IMG/VR virus record: IMGVR_UViG_3300033144_004109
Location: 1-30,049 of that record
Reading direction: 5' to 3' (one strand)
From: a virus
Length of the DNA stretch: 30,049 bases
Below, one piece after another: positions 6,128-28,090 of the stretch (within the stretch, counting starts at the first letter, position 1; each line of letters opens with the position of its first letter). The notes under the pieces are model-generated. The model saw nothing but the letters and a program-made list of their open reading frames with translations. It was not told the origin of the DNA and did no database searches. The translations under genes were made by a program, and so were the position numbers.

Positions 6128-9100
6128 TTAGTACCTCATCCTATTGTCTGCGTTTTCATTTACTATTCTAAGAACCTCATCTGCAATTCTATCAAGGTCA
6201 GAATCATCTCTTACTGTAGTATCATTAAAGTCAATATTAACATTTGGTCTGCCATCTCCACTTGCTCCAGGAGCATTTGCATAAAGAGCTTCGAATGTAG
6301 CATTTGCAATTTCTGTTAATCTTGGAATTTCACCAGCTATACCAACCTCTAAACCAGCAACAATATTATATCCAATATCCTCAAAAACTCTAGATGGAGA
6401 TTCAGTCATGTATACAGCCTTTGCTGTAGCAATTATTCGGTTCATCTGCCCTCTAAACTTTGTTATAAATCCTGGAAACTTTGCATTAACTCCTTTCTCA
6501 ATACCATCAATGATGCCCTGACCTATGCCACTAAACTCGTTAATCCAAGATTCTCCTTCTCCAATAAGTCCTAGCTTTACAGCAAGTGAGTAAATCTCAG
6601 CATAAAGTTCGGGGCTAGATTCTTTCCAACCAGCAATAATTCCTTGTACCATAGAAAAACCAAGAGGTTTCATATTTGCTCTTACTTCCTCTTTCATTGC
6701 CATGTCAGCAAGCATTGCGTCAAGTGCTTCCTGACCCATTAATTTGCCAAGGTCAATACCAAATTGTGATTTTCCTTCCTCATCTTCAAACGTAAAGAGG
6801 TCTCCAATATTAGCAATAGGTTTTTCAAATTCTTCTTCCCAAAGCCTTGCTCCTGCGTCTTTTACTAACCCCAATCCTTTTTCAATTTCTGGTACAATAA
6901 CATTATATAATTCTGTTGCAATCTCAGCAACTTTCATTACACCAAGAGCAGCAACTATAACTGCTGCAATAGCACCAGCTACAGGACTTACAAGCGCAGT
7001 ACCTGCTAAACCAAGAGCTTTTATAAGCCAACTACCAGAAGCTCCTTCTGCACCAATAGCTAATCCTTTACCGCCAAGAGCACTAGCTCCACCAAATAAA
7101 CCACCCAATAAACCTAAACCTTTACCAAATCCTGTGCCTATTGCAAGACCTGCTAAAGCAGGGCCAAACAATTTTAAAGCTCCTATAAAATAAATAAGCT
7201 CATCGGCTAAATTGTTATCAGCTATAAACTGTATAAAATCTGTTAGAGCTTCAAGAACATCAATAACAGTATCAATTACAACAAAATTTCCAGCCTCATC
7301 TTGAGTTAAAAGCAAATCCAAAAATGCCATTCCCATATCAGAGAAAGCTTGAATAATAGCAGGAGCATTTTCTGCAAGTGCTGCGCCTAATTGACCAATA
7401 CCATTTGCTAATTTAATAATTGGCAATTCATCTTCACCTATACCCTCGCCTGAAAAGCCCAAAGAGAAAGCTTCCATAATCTTGGGCCAAGTATTCTCAT
7501 CAAAAGCATCAAAAATGCCAGTAAAACCTTCGGCAATTGCAAGTAAACCTTCACTTAGACCACCAGCCAAAGTTTCCTCTGGTATGAGCCACTTTTGACC
7601 TCTAGGCCCATACTTAAATTTATCAACGCCAGAGAAATCAATTGTATCTATTTGGTCAGTAATTTCTTTAACGCCATCTGCCCCTAATTCACCCATTAAC
7701 AAAATAGCTTCGTCATAAAAATCACCAAAAACTTCATCAGCGTTTAATGTTTTCTTAACATTTTCTTCTAAGTTTATTAAGTCGGTCATATCGCCTGTAA
7801 AAATGGCTTTAAACAATGCGCTTACTGCCATGCCAAATGAGACCATTCCCACTTTAGCTTTAAATGCAGCAATTCTCAACAACAAAAGTCTCTTATTTAG
7901 ATTTGCACTAAGCATTTCCTGCTGTAAATCAAGATTATCTTGAAGCTTTTCTGCTTCTTTGTCTAGACTATTAATTTCAGCATTAATTATACGCAACTCA
8001 TCATCACGAGCCTTTCCTGCTTCTGCCAAAAGTTCTACTTTTTCTTCAGCAGATAAGGTATCGTCTGCTCCAATAGCACTTGCAGTAGATGCGTAGTCCC
8101 CTAATACTTTATTTCGATTATTTTCTAAGTTTCGAATCTTTGCTATAATAGATTCATATTTAAGAAAATCTTTTATTAACTTTTTAACCTCATCAGAAGC
8201 ATCTCCTAATCCAGAAACTAGACCATCTAACATCTCTTCAGTCACAGAACCAACTTCTCGGAAGACACTCAAAATCTCTGCTAATTTTTCTCTAAACCCA
8301 ATAATCCCCAAAAGAGCTTTCTTGCGTCCCTCAAGTTGTGCACTTGAATCAGTGCTAGATGTAAAAGTTAAAGCGTTAAAAATTCCAGCTACAACACCTG
8401 TAATCTTTTTAAGAATACTAAAGTCTGCGGAAAGCATGCCCTCCATCCAGCCTTTCATTAAGTTTTGTCCCCACATAATTATATTTGAAAGTGGGCCTTT
8501 CTTTGGGGCTGAAAATGCTTGAATAAAATCAGAAATTGCTTGAATAATTACATTAAGCCCTCTAATAATAAAATTAGCACCTGAAGAAATACCTTCAGCA
8601 TATGATTTAGTTAATTTAAGTCCCCATTTTTCTGCTTGTTCAGCTAAACCTTTTAGAACACCAGCAATCATGTCAACAAGACTCATGACGCTTCCTTGTG
8701 CACTCTGGAACATGCCAACAATTACACTAGTAAGAAGAATAACTATTGGATTAAACCTTATAAGTTGTCCTAATAAAACGCCAACGAATCCAATTAGGGC
8801 TGGAATTACGCCAAGAATTTTTGCAAAACCTTGTGCTGCTAAAATCAAACCAAATGCAATTTGGTTGAAGAAGAATGCAGCAGGGCCAATAACAGCAAAT
8901 AAACCAATCATAGTAATTATGGTTTTTTTGGTTTTATCACTTAGGTCAACAAACAGGCTTGTTAAAGCTTTGATAAAAGGAACTGCTTTTGATGCGCTCT
9001 CTGCAATGACAGGCAAAAGGTCATCGCCTATTGCAAGAGCTAATGTTTTAATCGTATTTTGTAAGATTTTTACTTGTGCACCAGTAGATTGTAATACCTG

Positions 9101-22220: not shown

Positions 22221-22511
22221 TTATTCTTCAATTGTCTTTGGTAAGGTTTTTTCAGACAACTTCTTTACGGTACGTGTAGCAAGACCTCCAGAAATAGCTT
22301 CTACTAATTGGTATATAGACCTAGTTATCGGGTCTGCTGTATACCATACTTTTCTTGTTGCGCATCGAGGGCACTTTACCATTAAATTTGGCCCATAACT
22401 ATTTATTAAATCTCCACTAACAGAAGAAGAAAGATACAACTCATTACCACTAACTTCTCCTAAAACTTCATCACACCCAGTACCTACGCAATACCAATTA
22501 TTGTTTCTCAT
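22221..22511 (-). CDS. Small zinc-ribbon protein beside the portal
   Basis: The 96-residue protein has cysteine pairs at residues 8 and 13 (CVGTGC) and 47 and 50 (CPRC), spaced as a small zinc ribbon. A helical basic C-terminus (VKKLSEKTLPKTIEE) follows. The ATG at 22511 overlaps the end of the portal gene by 14 bases. Similar Com-like zinc proteins of Mu-type phages act as RNA-binding translation regulators, but the resemblance is only in the cysteine pattern. Its role here is unknown. Confidence 0.6.
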   Translation of the reverse strand: MRNNNWYCVGTGCDEVLGEVSGNELYLSSSVSGDLINSYGPNLMVKCPRCATRKVWYTADPITRSIYQLVEAISGGLATRTVKKLSEKTLPKTIEE

Positions 22512-24138
22512 ATTCTTCTAATTCCTCAAATACTTTATCAAATACTGTTTTTACATCTTCTTTAGTTACTGCAATGGATAATTCCATCTCAAGCAATGCT
22601 CCGATTTCCATTGGAACATCCCTTAATTCAAAATTTCTAATTTCGTGCATTGGTCTATTCTTATCGAGCCTTCTCAATAAATAATCCTGCCACTGCTTTA
22701 ACTCTTTCCTAATGTCTCTTAATTTAAGAACTTTAGCATCATCATGGTCATCTCCACGAGGGGGGTCTTGGTCATCCAAAGTTGGCTCACCTACATTAGC
22801 TGGTGAATCTGGGTCATCCTCTCTACCTTCTGGGGGACTTCCTTGTTCTTCCTCATCACTAATGCCTTTTGTAGGAACATACTCATCTCCGTCTTCGTCA
22901 TCTCGTGCTGTAAGATGCAATTCTGCTCTAATCTCATTAGCACTAAATACACCTATATCACGATAGCGCATATTTACTGTAGCACGTTCAACGGCTGTAA
23001 GAAAGTCGGGTTGTCCAAATTTAAAATCCCAACCAACAATATCAAATTCTCTAAGATGAATTTGGTCTTTGAATCCCTGTTCAATTAAAGCAAATATAGG
23101 AATCATTGTAGACTCATGGAATTCTCGTCTAATTTCCTTCAAACTTGTTCCAGAAGTTTCTGAAGCAGGTACTCCAAGTTTTTCACCTGGAGTTGCAAGA
23201 ACCGCTAACATCTCAGAACGTGTTTGTGCTCTGGATTCGTTATACGGAAGTGCGTCTGGCATACCACTTAATTCAGTAACTGTCATTTCACCAGATACAA
23301 CCATTGGGTTGTTGCCAATATTTCCAGTACCTGAATATTTTTTATCCATCAACTGTGCAAAAGCTTCAAAAGCTTCATCAGTAATGTCCTCTGGAAGTTG
23401 ATAAATTGCTTCTGGCTTATCTCGATTAATGATATAATTATTTGCTGCGTCCTGCAACAAAATATCTAAAGGTAAGTTAAAGGATGCCAAAGATTCAGCA
23501 TCTGAAGAACCTAAAATAGAACCTGCAAAATCAGGATTTGTTATATATATAATATCTTCAAACTTGCTAAACTCTACTTTTGCCTTTGGGTCAGGGGATG
23601 TATACTGATAAAATGCTGGAGACTTAAAGTTTCCATGTTCATCAATATTAGGTACATTAAGACCATGCAAAAAATCTAAACCTAAAGCATTCCCACTTTC
23701 ATCTCTGATTATATGAAATGCACATTGCCCAAAATAATGCAAGTACATAACAGCAATTTTTATTTTATGTGCAAAAGAATAATAGTCTCTAATATTAGAC
23801 CAATCTCTATTTTCAAAAGCATAAAATCTTTTTAACTTTTTATACTGATACTTTTTAGCATCATTTAAAAAGTCTACATTACGAACTAATTCCCATCCAG
23901 CAGATAATGCTGTTCTACCTACTATGCTAGTTGCTGCACGCAAATAACCATGAATCCTTAGAACTTCCATCATATCCCAGAACATAACAAACTTTCTGGC
24001 AGCCATAGAAACGGGGTCTAAGCGATAGTTTAAAATTGTATCCGTTGAAGGAATACTTAAACCAGCAACCCCTTTTGTTTTAATCAATCTACTCTTCACA
24101 CTCGATTTTTTCTTCGCATTAAGAACCATTAAATCCAC
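22498..24138 (-). CDS. Portal protein
   Basis: This 546-residue protein contains typical portal elements: an early helical region (VMFWDMMEVLRIHGYLRAATSIVG cut short here by length limits), a clip-region segment LGLDFLHGLNVPNID, and the stem-like PNAIYQLPED-type segment followed by SETSGTSLKEIRREFH. Residues 420-470 form a charged, proline-rich linker (EEEQGSPPEGRED), and the C-terminus is helical. GTG 24138 is chosen as start because GGAGG lies 9 bases before it, whereas the next ATG (24129) is 18 bases away. It is the first gene after a terminator and a 12-bp repeated leader element. It forms the dodecameric DNA channel at one capsid vertex. The identification rests on sequence character and order. 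Confidence 0.85.
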   Translation of the reverse strand: MDLMVLNAKKKSSVKSRLIKTKGVAGLSIPSTDTILNYRLDPVSMAARKFVMFWDMMEVLRIHGYLRAATSIVGRTALSAGWELVRNVDFLNDAKKYQYKKLKRFYAFENRDWSNIRDYYSFAHKIKIAVMYLHYFGQCAFHIIRDESGNALGLDFLHGLNVPNIDEHGNFKSPAFYQYTSPDPKAKVEFSKFEDIIYITNPDFAGSILGSSDAESLASFNLPLDILLQDAANNYIINRDKPEAIYQLPEDITDEAFEAFAQLMDKKYSGTGNIGNNPMVVSGEMTVTELSGMPDALPYNESRAQTRSEMLAVLATPGEKLGVPASETSGTSLKEIRREFHESTMIPIFALIEQGFKDQIHLREFDIVGWDFKFGQPDFLTAVERATVNMRYRDIGVFSANEIRAELHLTARDDEDGDEYVPTKGISDEEEQGSPPEGREDDPDSPANVGEPTLDDQDPPRGDDHDDAKVLKLRDIRKELKQWQDYLLRRLDKNRPMHEIRNFELRDVPMEIGALLEMELSIAVTKEDVKTVFDKVFEELEEYEKQ

Positions 24139-24251: not shown

Positions 24252-24488
24252 TTATTTAATTAGTTCTAAAATAGATACTTTTTCAGCATTAATGATTGCT
24301 AACCTAATATCCTTTTCTTCTAAATCCAATTGCCTACTTAATTCCTCCAGGTCTTCACCTGTCAAAGTTTTACTTTCTGGAAGAAGCAATAAGTATCTCC
24401 CACCAGGAACTAATTCTTTGTATAGTATGTCTATAATAAATTCCTCCCTTATCTTTTGTATTACCTTATCTATTATTTTCTGTATCAT
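24252..24488 (-). CDS. Small unknown protein after the non-coding segment
   Basis: This 78-residue protein is charged and helical (MIQKIIDKVIQKIREEFIID, later TGEDLEELSRQLDLEEKDIR) and has no recognised motif. There is no clear ribosome binding site directly before ATG 24488. The nearest good purine-rich site (AGGAGGGG) is about 50 bases upstream and locked in the 11-bp stem at 24539-24587. It lies alone between a structured leader and a terminator, so its translation may depend on that leader. A regulatory or packaging-accessory role would be a guess. Confidence 0.55.
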   Translation of the reverse strand: MIQKIIDKVIQKIREEFIIDILYKELVPGGRYLLLLPESKTLTGEDLEELSRQLDLEEKDIRLAIINAEKVSILELIK

Positions 24489-24538
24489 ATTATATTTATC
24501 TACACTTTCATACTATATTTTTACTAACACTTGATACA

Positions 24539-24587
24539 CCCCTCCTATACTGACTATATAAAAATATATAATCTAATATAGGAGGGG
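24539..24587 (-). other. Hairpin that sequesters an AGGAGG sequence
   Basis: The 11-bp stem CCCCTCCTATA / TATAGGAGGGG encloses a 27-nt AT-rich loop with a further TATATA self-complement. On the minus strand the 3' arm contains AGGAGG, a perfect anti-16S sequence, and the 5' arm masks it. No T tract follows, so it is not a normal terminator. No ORF starts at the right spacing after it. Confidence 0.5.
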
Positions 24588-24589
24588 CA

Positions 24590-24945
24590 TAGTTTTTCTA
24601 ACTAATGGCATTTATTGAGAAGCTTTATCTCAATTGACGTTTAATGGTAGAATCACTACCAGCCATACGCCCTACCACCCTATGCTGTATAGAACCTATT
24701 ACCTAATGGTACGCATCCCAGGTCTCGCTTTACATGCATTTCAGTTCTATCTCCGTAACGAGTACAGGAGTGACTTAATCGTTTACTGTCTATTAATGAA
24801 TAGAATTCGACAGTTCTGGGTTCTATTCATAAAAATTAGGGAAGTTTTAATCCCTTGTCCGTTGGCAACAAGACACAACACTCTCGTCATGCCCAACCCC
24901 ATATGTGAAATAAGTTTCCAACCAGCTTATTTATTTTCTTGTATC
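24590..24945 (-). ncRNA. Candidate structured non-coding RNA after the large terminase
   Basis: Between the stop of the large terminase and the small ORF lie about 490 bases with no convincing gene. A consensus promoter (24949-24977) would start a minus-strand transcript at about 24942-24945. The transcript contains many perfect inverted repeats: 24908-24914/24926-24932, 24796-24805/24821-24830 (10 bp), 24751-24770 (bulged), 24689-24695/24744-24750, 24660-24687 (7 bp with a bulge), 24645-24650/24656-24661 and 24614-24620/24628-24634. Two pairs interleave like pseudoknots. It may be a free RNA or a very long structured leader of the following ORF. No known RNA family could be assigned by eye. 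Confidence 0.55.
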
Positions 24946-24948
24946 TTA

Positions 24949-24977
24949 ATTATACCATAGAACAAATGTGCTGTCAA
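24949..24977 (-). promoter_or_regulatory. Consensus sigma-70 type promoter after the large terminase
   Basis: On the minus strand TTGACA (24977-24972), a 17-bp spacer and TATAAT (24954-24949) match consensus exactly, with TGG just before the -10 as an extended element. It begins 9 bp after the terminase stop and points into the gene-free segment. Confidence 0.85.
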
Positions 24978-24985
24978 GAAATTGG

Positions 24986-26722
24986 TTATCTAATTCTTAA
25001 AGCTCGTTTGGGTGCAACAGTTAAATCTTTATCTCCAACACCACCACTAGCACTCTGACCAATAATTCTTGCTCTAAATTTTGTACCCTTGCCAATTTCA
25101 ACGGCAGTTTTTAAATAACCTGCAGCATGCGCAAAGTGGTCTGCACCAACACTTCTGTATACAGCTAATTCTACTTTTTCACCATCTGATTTTGTTTTAA
25201 ATTCAACATCTCTTTTAATTTTTGTCCATTGACTCATAACAGTTTCTATGTGTGGGTGAATAGGTGTTGTACCACCTGGAAGTCCCCACATGCCCTCATT
25301 AACTGATTCAATAAAAGCGTCAAAAGAGTCGGTGCGGTTAATTGCAACATTTGTTTTTGTCTTACTTTTTATAACACTCTTTCCATCATTATCTTTTGCA
25401 GACACTTGCCAGGTTCGTTCTGTTTTAGCGTAATCTGCAAGAAGAATTCTTCCAGGAAAAGCTTTTCTCAAAGTTTTTACTGAATTTCTGTTGGGGTCTC
25501 CATCTATTACAGCTTTTCTAATTTCGTAAAGACGCATAAGTTGTCCAAGTCTAACAAAGTTATCCTCTTCACTAGGCGGAATAATTTCCGTATGAACAAC
25601 GTTAATTCTATTTTTTTCTTTATCATATCTGCCAATCATTACCTGAAGAGCATTTCCTTGGTCAACACCCATATAATATTGTTCTTCGGGATTAGCAAAA
25701 GCTTCGAATTCAAAATGCTCTCTAAAACAGTTTAATAAAATGTCTTCCCGTTCTAATTGACCACCACTAAGCTCATAAGGCAAACCAAGACGCTTTCTCC
25801 AGAACTCAACTAGGGTTTGTTTGGGGTCTAACAAGTGTATATATAATTCAAAAGCTGTTTTGTTCATCAATTGTGATATGTGAAAACCAACTCTATCTTT
25901 AGTTATTGACGGTTTTTCTGCAACCCATTTTCCTGTTTGGATAAAATCAAGTTCGAATCTATTATTACATTTAACACAACCAAAATAAACATCTGTAGGC
26001 TTATCTAGATTTCCTACAATTTTAACATGTTTATCCCACTCAAGGTGTTGCCATGTACCACAGCTTTCACATTTTAACATCCATCTTTGCATATCACTGC
26101 GTTTATACATTGAATCGATACCAAAGTTGGATATTGTAGGTGTTCCAAATTGGTTAATAATTCTCCAATTAGATGCATCCAAACGGTTTAATGCTGTACC
26201 AAGATGTCCCTGGTCAGACAAGTCTACTTCATCAATATAAAGAGCATCTGCTGGCATCATTCTTGGCTCAACAGAAAGCTCCATAAAGAATACATAAGAA
26301 TTTCCAATTGATTTAACTCTTGTACTATCTGGTTTTCCTAAAAGTTCAGTGAGTCTTTCTGAAGCCCGAATCATAGGGTCTACACGTGTAGAAACTAAAT
26401 CGATAACATCTTGTTGTCTAGGGAGTGTGTAGATAGCACGAATATCCCAATAATCAGCAAAATGAAACATTTTAACTAAGCCCATAGTTGACATTCCAAC
26501 TTGTGTAGGCTTCATTAAACACATCTCATGTGCACGACCAATGGGGTCTTTTTCTAAGTAATAGGGGTTAATAGCGTCATAGACTCCCTCAATCCACTTT
26601 CGCTCTAACACTTCCCATTTTTTATTTTCTAACAAATCTACATTTGCTATTCCATACGCAAGGGGACTTTTTAGAGTTGCAGAATTGATTCTGTCTCCGA
26701 TATTGTATTTAGCTTTAGTCAA
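24986..26722 (-). CDS. Terminase large subunit, GpA type
   Basis: This 578-residue protein has the GpA-type terminase layout. KPTQVGMST at residues 71-79 is the Walker A-like motif, and ALYIDEVDL (Asp164-Glu165) the Walker B and catalytic acid. A zinc finger follows with CESCG (218-221) and CVKC (249-252), usual in GpA proteins. The nuclease domain has YMGVDQGN (Asp354), AVIDGDPNRN (Asp406/408) and the late GADHFAHAAGYL helix with its acidic residue. It cuts and pumps DNA into the prohead through the portal. The start is TTG 26722, overlapping the previous stop as TTGACTAA, with AAGGA four to five bases before; no other start exists before the ATPase motif. Confidence 0.9.
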   Translation of the reverse strand: MTKAKYNIGDRINSATLKSPLAYGIANVDLLENKKWEVLERKWIEGVYDAINPYYLEKDPIGRAHEMCLMKPTQVGMSTMGLVKMFHFADYWDIRAIYTLPRQQDVIDLVSTRVDPMIRASERLTELLGKPDSTRVKSIGNSYVFFMELSVEPRMMPADALYIDEVDLSDQGHLGTALNRLDASNWRIINQFGTPTISNFGIDSMYKRSDMQRWMLKCESCGTWQHLEWDKHVKIVGNLDKPTDVYFGCVKCNNRFELDFIQTGKWVAEKPSITKDRVGFHISQLMNKTAFELYIHLLDPKQTLVEFWRKRLGLPYELSGGQLEREDILLNCFREHFEFEAFANPEEQYYMGVDQGNALQVMIGRYDKEKNRINVVHTEIIPPSEEDNFVRLGQLMRLYEIRKAVIDGDPNRNSVKTLRKAFPGRILLADYAKTERTWQVSAKDNDGKSVIKSKTKTNVAINRTDSFDAFIESVNEGMWGLPGGTTPIHPHIETVMSQWTKIKRDVEFKTKSDGEKVELAVYRSVGADHFAHAAGYLKTAVEIGKGTKFRARIIGQSASGGVGDKDLTVAPKRALRIR

Positions 26723-27521
26723 TGCTTCCTTCTTCTAACTCAAACTCAGTTTCATAAATGTCGGCTTTAAGATTGTGTACTGTCTGAACATGCAATGCTA
26801 GTTTAGCATATCGTTTACCACAAATATGACATAAAGCACCTTTCTTAGAAATATCTAACTTTCCAATTTCACCATGAAATGGCTTACCATCTTGGTCTAC
26901 TAAAGGTGCACTGGTTCTAATAGTTCTTATATCAACATCTATGATATTTTCTTCATTCACTCTTTTAGCAACATACTCAAGAGCACCTTTGTTTGCCTTT
27001 AAAATTAAATCACTAGCATCATCTGTTTTAATGATAATAACATCTTTATGCTTAAAAAACAAATCAATAATATATCTTGCTTGCTGTGCTTGCACAGCTA
27101 ATAACTTAGCATCTGGCTCATGATAAATAACCTGTCCATCGTCATTTAAATATGGATTTCCGTCACTATCCATTAAAACCCTTGTTTCAGAAGTTAAAAC
27201 TTTTTCTGAGATGTCGGCAGCATGCATGAACTGTTGTTCGATTCTAGCTAAACGCCATCGAATCAACAGGTCTCTTCCATTTTTAATTAATAAAGTTAAT
27301 GCGGGGTATTTTTTTAACCAGCTTTTTAAAGTCCTGGTTTGTACTTCAAGTTTTTTAGAGATTTTATACATTGGATAATTAGACATCATCATTTCTGCCA
27401 TTCTAATTACCTTTTCTGGAAGTTCGTCCGTATCTATTTTTTCAACTATTGTGTCGATAATTTCACGCCATTCCAGAACACCCAACGTATCAACATTAAA
27501 AGGAACTAATTCTTTACTCAT
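26715..27521 (-). CDS. Putative small terminase with C-terminal C2H2-like zinc finger
   Basis: I take ATG 27521 (MSKELVPF, 268 residues) because it overlaps the previous stop as ATGAGTAA and a GAGG lies 12 bases before. The longer start at 27560 lacks a ribosome site. Residues about 49-69 (NYPMYKISKKLEVQTRTLKSW) form a helix-turn-helix like that of small terminases. A helical oligomerisation-like middle follows. The C-terminus has CHICGKRYAKLALHVQTVHNL, with Cys231, Cys234, His244 and His249, resembling Ros/MucR or C2H2 fingers. It lies directly before the large terminase, the usual place of the small subunit that recognises the packaging site. The finger is not usual in small terminases and may add DNA specificity. 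Confidence 0.65.
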   Translation of the reverse strand: MSKELVPFNVDTLGVLEWREIIDTIVEKIDTDELPEKVIRMAEMMMSNYPMYKISKKLEVQTRTLKSWLKKYPALTLLIKNGRDLLIRWRLARIEQQFMHAADISEKVLTSETRVLMDSDGNPYLNDDGQVIYHEPDAKLLAVQAQQARYIIDLFFKHKDVIIIKTDDASDLILKANKGALEYVAKRVNEENIIDVDIRTIRTSAPLVDQDGKPFHGEIGKLDISKKGALCHICGKRYAKLALHVQTVHNLKADIYETEFELEEGSID

Positions 27522-27750
27522 CTTTAAAAAGTACCTCAAAATCACTTTCCGTGATTTCATTTCTAGCTATTTTGTAATGCCTTCTTCTTTCCCTCTGTAT
27601 ATCATTCCACTTAAACCTTAACCAATCGGGCCAATTAACAGCCCGATTTCCGTATATTTTTTCGCAATTTGCACAAATAGCAAACTGCCATGTTATTTGT
27701 TTTCTACAGCTACAACACGAATGTATTCTAAATCTACCGCCATTACTCAT
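27514..27750 (-). CDS. Small zinc-ribbon protein
   Basis: The 78-residue protein has a compact zinc ribbon: cysteines at 12, 13 and 15 (SCCSC) and at 26 and 29 (CANC). A tryptophan-rich and basic second half follows (WPDWLRFKWNDIQRERRRHY). ATG 27750 lies within the end of the sigma-like gene as ATGAGTAA, and its own stop overlaps the next start in the same way. It may bind nucleic acid; HNH endonucleases also carry such ribbons, but no HNH core is visible. Confidence 0.6.
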   Translation of the reverse strand: MSNGGRFRIHSCCSCRKQITWQFAICANCEKIYGNRAVNWPDWLRFKWNDIQRERRRHYKIARNEITESDFEVLFKDE

Positions 27751-28015: not shown

Positions 28016-28044
28016 ATTATACCATAGTTTATCCAATTTGTCAA
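28016..28044 (-). promoter_or_regulatory. Leftward consensus promoter (packaging and late side)
   Basis: On the minus strand TTGACA (28044-28039), 17 bp and TATAAT (28021-28016) match consensus, preceded by TGG as an extended -10. The predicted start is about 28009, giving a leader of about 15 bases to ATG 27994 of the sigma-like gene. Confidence 0.9.
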
Positions 28045-28061
28045 GATTACAAAATCCACTC

Positions 28062-28090
28062 TTGACAGGGGTAAAATAGTATGGTATAAT
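28062..28090 (+). promoter_or_regulatory. Rightward consensus promoter (early side)
   Basis: TTGACA (28062-28067), a 17-bp spacer ending TATGG, and TATAAT (28085-28090) match consensus exactly. It is back to back with the leftward promoter, their -35 boxes 17 bp apart. It drives the SSB gene and the genes to its right. Confidence 0.9.

Follow-up and report, generated by a model that had tools for sequence, protein, structure and literature searches.

EGFOA (RF02955) is a known, curated and poorly understood RNA family, and in the literature searched no paper dealing with it was found. Further structured RNAs encoded by phages are ROOL and GOLLD, the function of which is unknown (PMC12286853), and phage K was described to encode the long RNAs lnc001 and lnc002 (PMC9241854). 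The RNA analysed here is encoded in a 30,049-base IMG/VR virus record, and this whole stretch of DNA is referred to as the window. With EGFOA, the RNA shares the core hairpin with the GUAAAGC-NAGACCUGGG loop, the upstream CC(C)AG and CCGUNCUNG elements and the outer helix, and three syntenic relatives of the window exceed the cutoff of this family. It differs in hairpin B, for which the Rfam consensus has an additional inner stem that the window lacks, and in two kissing pairings which are absent from the cmscan consensus line; this line cannot show pseudoknots, and the pairings may be contained in the original description of the family. ROOL and GOLLD are likewise phage-encoded structured RNAs, but their conserved sequence is unlike that of the window, and neither a tRNA nor a tmRNA is present in the window. 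The covariance models of GOLLD, ROOL and HEARO left the window unmatched at all Rfam thresholds used. The lnc001 and lnc002 RNAs of phage K are also long, and the phage K TerL is distantly related to the one encoded here; however, their regions contain no core-like motif, even with up to 3 mismatches allowed, and a kinship with them was rejected, since no motif is held in common. Like the phi29 pRNA, the RNA of the window's clade adjoins packaging genes, whereas its family occurs also without packaging machinery.

In the window, the order of genes on the minus strand is that of a TerS-like protein (26715-27560), TerL (24986-26722, PHROG terminase large subunit match with 4e-88), the RNA segment and the portal gene (22498-24138). 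The TerS-like protein was designated by its position beside TerL in the gene order; it gives a weak C-terminal match to a ROS/MUCR zinc finger, below the Pfam cutoff, and is kept in all four relatives described below. An extended sigma70/sigmaA promoter, TTGACA-17-TATAAT with a TG before the -10 element, is located at 24977..24949 (-), 8 nt downstream of the TerL stop codon (24988-24986). It matches the consensus in 12 of 12 positions, as had been stated in the initial annotation for a promoter behind the terminase stop, and from its position an RNA start near 24942 (-) is predicted. Perfect TTGACA-(16-18)-TATAAT sites occur three times in the window, in comparison to 0.02 expected per shuffled window, and all three end alike with TATGGTATAAT. 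The other two have the same spacing of 17, are divergent (28016-28044 on the minus and 28062-28090 on the plus strand) and probably serve the transcription of the two gene blocks that oppose each other. The strong terminator claimed for the end of the unit was identified at 24225-24201 (-), with a 10-bp stem followed by a T run. Between promoter and terminator, a unit of about 350 bases free of genes had been proposed; the gene-free stretch was found, but it makes up only the first half of the predicted transcription unit, which continues through a 49-nt hairpin and an ORF of 78 amino acids (24252..24488, -) to the terminator.

The structured RNA domain of the EGFOA type extends over 24590..24942 (-), as judged by the Rfam alignment, synteny, covariation and a model match. 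No gene was found in this interval: the sole ORF, 24634-24960 (+), with a TTG start and coding for 108 amino acids, gave no tblastn match in the relatives fetched, in agreement with the earlier statement that the interval holds no supported gene. Three non-overlapping perfect stems of at least 7 bp are present, in comparison to 0.28 in shuffled sequences (0 of 200 shuffles reach that number), and four of at least 6 bp, in comparison to 1.16 (2.5% of shuffles). Of the at least seven hairpins counted initially, the excess of strong stems thus holds, while a number of seven is reached only when weak ones are included. The minimum free energy (MFE) of the 364-nt segment is modestly low (z of -1.9). 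For the whole 743-nt unit, a z of -5.7 was obtained, partly because of the strong 49-nt hairpin CCCCUCCUAUA/UAUAGGAGGGG at 24539..24587 (-), which in a 71-nt window has a z of -8.7. The 3' arm of this hairpin contains the Shine-Dalgarno-like (SD-like) AGGAGGGG (24546-24539). Within 24513-24546 (-), this element lies 8 nt ahead of a GTG, which opens a frame of five codons ending in TAG; it is in register with the 78-aa ORF, and the homologues of that ORF have longer N-termini.

At the Rfam gathering thresholds, no match was obtained in the window. With relaxed thresholds, EGFOA was found at 21.1 bits (E of 0.24), a sub-threshold match which arises because a stretch of the window is identical to the EGFOA core GUAAAGC-N-AGACCUGGG. 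The initial view that the segment could not be assigned to a known family is therefore superseded, and the Rfam search proposed there, which was negative for GOLLD, ROOL and HEARO, did reveal this one tie. Because 21.1 bits fall short of the curated cutoff of 37.7 bits, the RNA is named a divergent EGFOA relative and not a curated member. The 17-nt core GUAAAGC-NNG-ACCUGGG is present as an exact, single copy in the window, with a chance expectation of 0.00. Also present are the EGFOA core loop GUAAAGCNAGACCUGGG, closed by a 6-bp stem, the outer helix around the core hairpin, aligned by cmscan as AUAGAAC/GUUCUAU, and the CCGUNCUNG element with its small hairpin, in the form CUCC-U-GUACUCG-UUAC-GGAG, with a reduced inner stem and a 4-bp pairing with the core. 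A covariance model (R1), built from 22 members with the window left out, finds the window at 24.2 bits (E of 6.9e-4), the next best match having 6.3 bits. The core, this leave-out model, the relatives at the same site and the covariation together identify, on the level of sequence comparison, the segment as encoding a real structured RNA that is a divergent relative of EGFOA. This is in line with the dedicated structured RNA inferred initially, the transcript of which is predicted.

The core hairpin is located at 24711..24739 (-) and consists of a 6-bp stem and the 17-nt loop GUAAAGCGAGACCUGGG (24733-24717); it was identified by the exact core, the EGFOA alignment and the R1 match. Sequence comparison shows that its loop pairs with the loops of two upstream hairpins. 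Hairpin A (24798..24828, -) has the stem GAAUAGAA/UUCUAUUC and CCCAGA in its loop, from which the kissing strand CCCAG (PK2, 24816..24820, -) pairs with CUGGG at 24721-24717 of the core. Hairpin B (24751..24770, -) has the stem CUCC/GGAG and GUACUCG in its loop, from which CUCG (PK1, 24759..24762, -) pairs with CGAG at 24727-24724. As a rule, PK1 joins the final four bases of GUN-NNNN to core positions 7-10, and PK2 joins NCCAG to core positions 13-17. The outer helix is formed by AUAGAAC (24744..24750, -) and GUUCUAU (24695-24689); in the MFE structure of the window it competes with a longer alternative helix, and in all four relatives its equivalent lies directly 3' of hairpin B. In the structure given by this comparison, the three loops meet, and the invariant unpaired GUAANG and ACC are fixed in a compact hub.

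Four phages share the order TerS-TerL-RNA-portal with the window, and the RNA is present in all of them. In one (L011), the TerL and portal proteins that flank the RNA are each 47% identical to those of the window. At the TerL-portal site, the EGFOA cutoff is exceeded in L011 (38.5 bits), L054 (42.9 bits) and L056 (40.8 bits), while the RNA of L053 at this site stays below it. In each of the four, a consensus promoter with 10 to 12 of 12 matches is found at the TerL stop or immediately behind it. In L053, a tRNA-Gly (TCC) gene (7496-7567) with its own promoter is located between TerL and the RNA. When compared across the five syntenic phages, the sequences of hairpin A, hairpin B and the outer helix differ, and all of them pair in five of five; the stem of hairpin A, too, varies yet pairs in each. 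For PK1, the combination CUCG/CGAG occurs in the window and L011, UGCG/CGCA in L053, and CUGC/GCAG in L054 and L056.

The members of the family were gathered by pattern, synteny and model searches, and 33 were aligned. Neither the window segment nor other members had a BLAST match in 50,697 phage records, and a search of viral contigs with a single TerL sequence was negative, too; a search with a two-sequence TerL alignment identified L053, L054 and L056, which were picked without reference to any RNA. The core pattern search matched other virus contigs, L011 among them, several being EGFOA above the cutoff. Fourteen first-round members were chosen by the core motif plus the Rfam score or by eye, and PK1 pairs in all of them. 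Two loose gapped scans gave many chance matches; among 38 distinct core-pattern matches in the newly fetched loci, 13 could form PK1, 10 of these also with a stem of at least 3 bp. Eleven of the 13 were kept, in addition to L124 and L141, in which one PK1 pair is missing; L120 and L136 were kept despite 2-bp stems, L131 was dropped, and L148, which is nearly the same as L152, was not included in the alignment. The candidates L006, L010, L024-L030, L032, L034-L037 and L039-L047 were rejected as chance matches, with the core letters present and a flanking stem and/or the pairing missing, or with the match inside reading frames. The R1 model gave no match in 391 genomes of one class, in a search that had no positive control.

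For the 33 members (alignment A3), 91.2% of the cells are paired, in comparison to at most 41.4% in slid controls, and the covariation is 0.613, in comparison to 0.156 +/- 0.019 in shuffled alignments; both kissing pairings covary strongly, and this includes the window. In PK1, 98.5% of the cells are paired and double changes occur at all four pairs; all four are formed in 31 of 33 members, whereas 20,000 permutations gave 7.0 on average and 16 at most. The count of 31 is inflated because some later members were admitted partly for their pairing, while the synteny set is not inflated. In PK2, 96.9% of the cells are paired, and its outer pair, which was left free in the two loose gapped search patterns, covaries, being C-G in 21 and U-A in 6 members. 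A chromosomal-looking member (L169), found by the Rfam EGFOA model, which carries no pseudoknot term, has PK1 in the new combination GUAG/CUAC. The pair counts took no rows from the full-length MAFFT alignment of the five syntenic RNAs, which misplaces the cores, and for the same reason the extent of the RNA beyond the core is uncertain. In L112, L149, L154, L005, L009 and L163, a common stretch containing GGCUCC is located about 30-60 nt 3' of the core, which hints at a conserved 3' domain outside the Rfam model.

Outside the terminase-portal site, members were identified near TerL (L003, L012), capsid genes (L013, L023), DNA polymerase and endolysin (L007), an endolysin-like gene (L005), primase-helicase or DnaB-like genes (L152, L160), a helicase (L038), ssDNA-annealing proteins (L136, L154), ParA or ParB (L014, L061) and an FtsK-like gene (L112). 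BLAST of the members against plasmids revealed one on a complete 29.8-kb conjugative plasmid of Brevibacillus borstelensis (L165, NZ_CP144923.1), which scores 61.9 bits for EGFOA. The annotations of this plasmid include MobC, relaxase, VirD4, VirB4, TraX and ParA, with no terminase or capsid gene; the RNA lies near 22390-22506, upstream of TraX and ParA, and its core overlaps none of the genes in the PLSDB table. A search of 399 Bacillota genomes with the Rfam EGFOA model gave one match (63.8 bits), which is the chromosomal-looking member L169. Its contig carries NfeD, FloA and RHS genes; the RNA (2393-2502) is positioned at the contig end, with RHS-repeat and DUF2380 genes nearby.

On balance, the window is likely to encode a divergent EGFOA RNA with its own promoter and three meeting loops, which would act in trans on a conserved host component. 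In this proposal, the host RNA polymerase with its housekeeping sigma factor would transcribe the RNA from its own promoter and continue past the hairpin and the 78-aa ORF as far as the terminator; the invariant GUAANG and ACC bases would be exposed as a contact site for the host component, and diverse mobile elements would carry the RNA because its target is a host function and not packaging. The presence of members in many contexts and the promoter at the TerL stop in five of five syntenic phages are in favour of this proposal; the score of only 21.1 bits against 37.7 and the helix competing with the outer helix speak against it. The same predicted transcript would also suit a leader, in which the RNA or the hairpin at 24539-24587 controls translation or termination of the 78-aa ORF. 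This ORF has no Pfam or PHROG match, but is homologous to the small ORF 3' of the RNA in L011 (BLASTP, E of 8e-5), matches L056 in tblastn (E of 1.5e-4) and aligns with similar small ORFs in L054 and L056, so that a small ORF follows the RNA in four of five syntenic phages; no terminator separates it from the hairpin region, and the SD-like element lies within an arm of a very stable hairpin. However, L053 has the RNA without an ORF of this type, the hairpin that would block the SD-like element is separate from the EGFOA core, and the downstream genes differ across the members, with no co-oriented conserved gene across the homologues. By crude ORF calling in the 33 members, the next gene 3' of the RNA shares its strand in 20 cases and is oriented oppositely in 8, with a contig edge in 5. 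Since 8 of the 28 assessable cases are on the opposite strand, the RNA is not generally a leader; the large cis-regulatory leader considered initially thus stays possible for the clade and not for the family, and we regard it as rather unlikely for the window.

A packaging-linked role, suggested initially from the place of the segment, would make it an RNA working with the terminase, like the phi29 pRNA. That TerL and portal flank the RNA in five related phages agrees with this, as does a terminase or capsid gene nearby in L003, L012, L013 and L023. However, phage members are also located at lysis, replication or partition genes, the conjugative plasmid carries the RNA together with relaxase, VirD4 and VirB4 and without a terminase or capsid gene, the chromosomal-looking contig has the same RNA, and no match to a known pRNA family was found. 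Because other phages, a conjugative plasmid and a bacterial chromosome-like contig carry it elsewhere, the RNA is probably not a packaging RNA, and we consider that role very improbable; the location beside the terminase would rather be a peculiarity of the phages in this group. As a special case, the trans-acting RNA would be a decoy or counter-defence RNA which sequesters a bacterial immunity factor. Phages and a conjugative plasmid would have a common need to survive entry, and the promoter is of the host type, but the RNA is also found on the chromosomal-looking contig, and such a decoy appears improbable. That the hairpins arose by chance in an AT-rich spacer without a functional RNA would suit the z of only -1.9 for the 364-nt part; it is contradicted by the conserved core, the covariation and the synteny, so that its probability is negligible.

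Most likely, the RNA is a structured RNA that mobile elements carry and that acts in trans. More tentatively, the kissing-loop hub may be one RNA device common to phages, conjugative plasmids and some chromosomes, acting in trans on a conserved host component, possibly as a catalytic or counter-defence RNA, in a class far wider than the curated family. The finding also shows that proximity to packaging genes does not by itself make an RNA a packaging RNA. Both covarying contacts between loops, together with the wide and divergent membership in phage records, provide a compact and testable structure, and with the isolate member on the complete B. borstelensis plasmid, a laboratory organism for a knock-out of the RNA is at hand.
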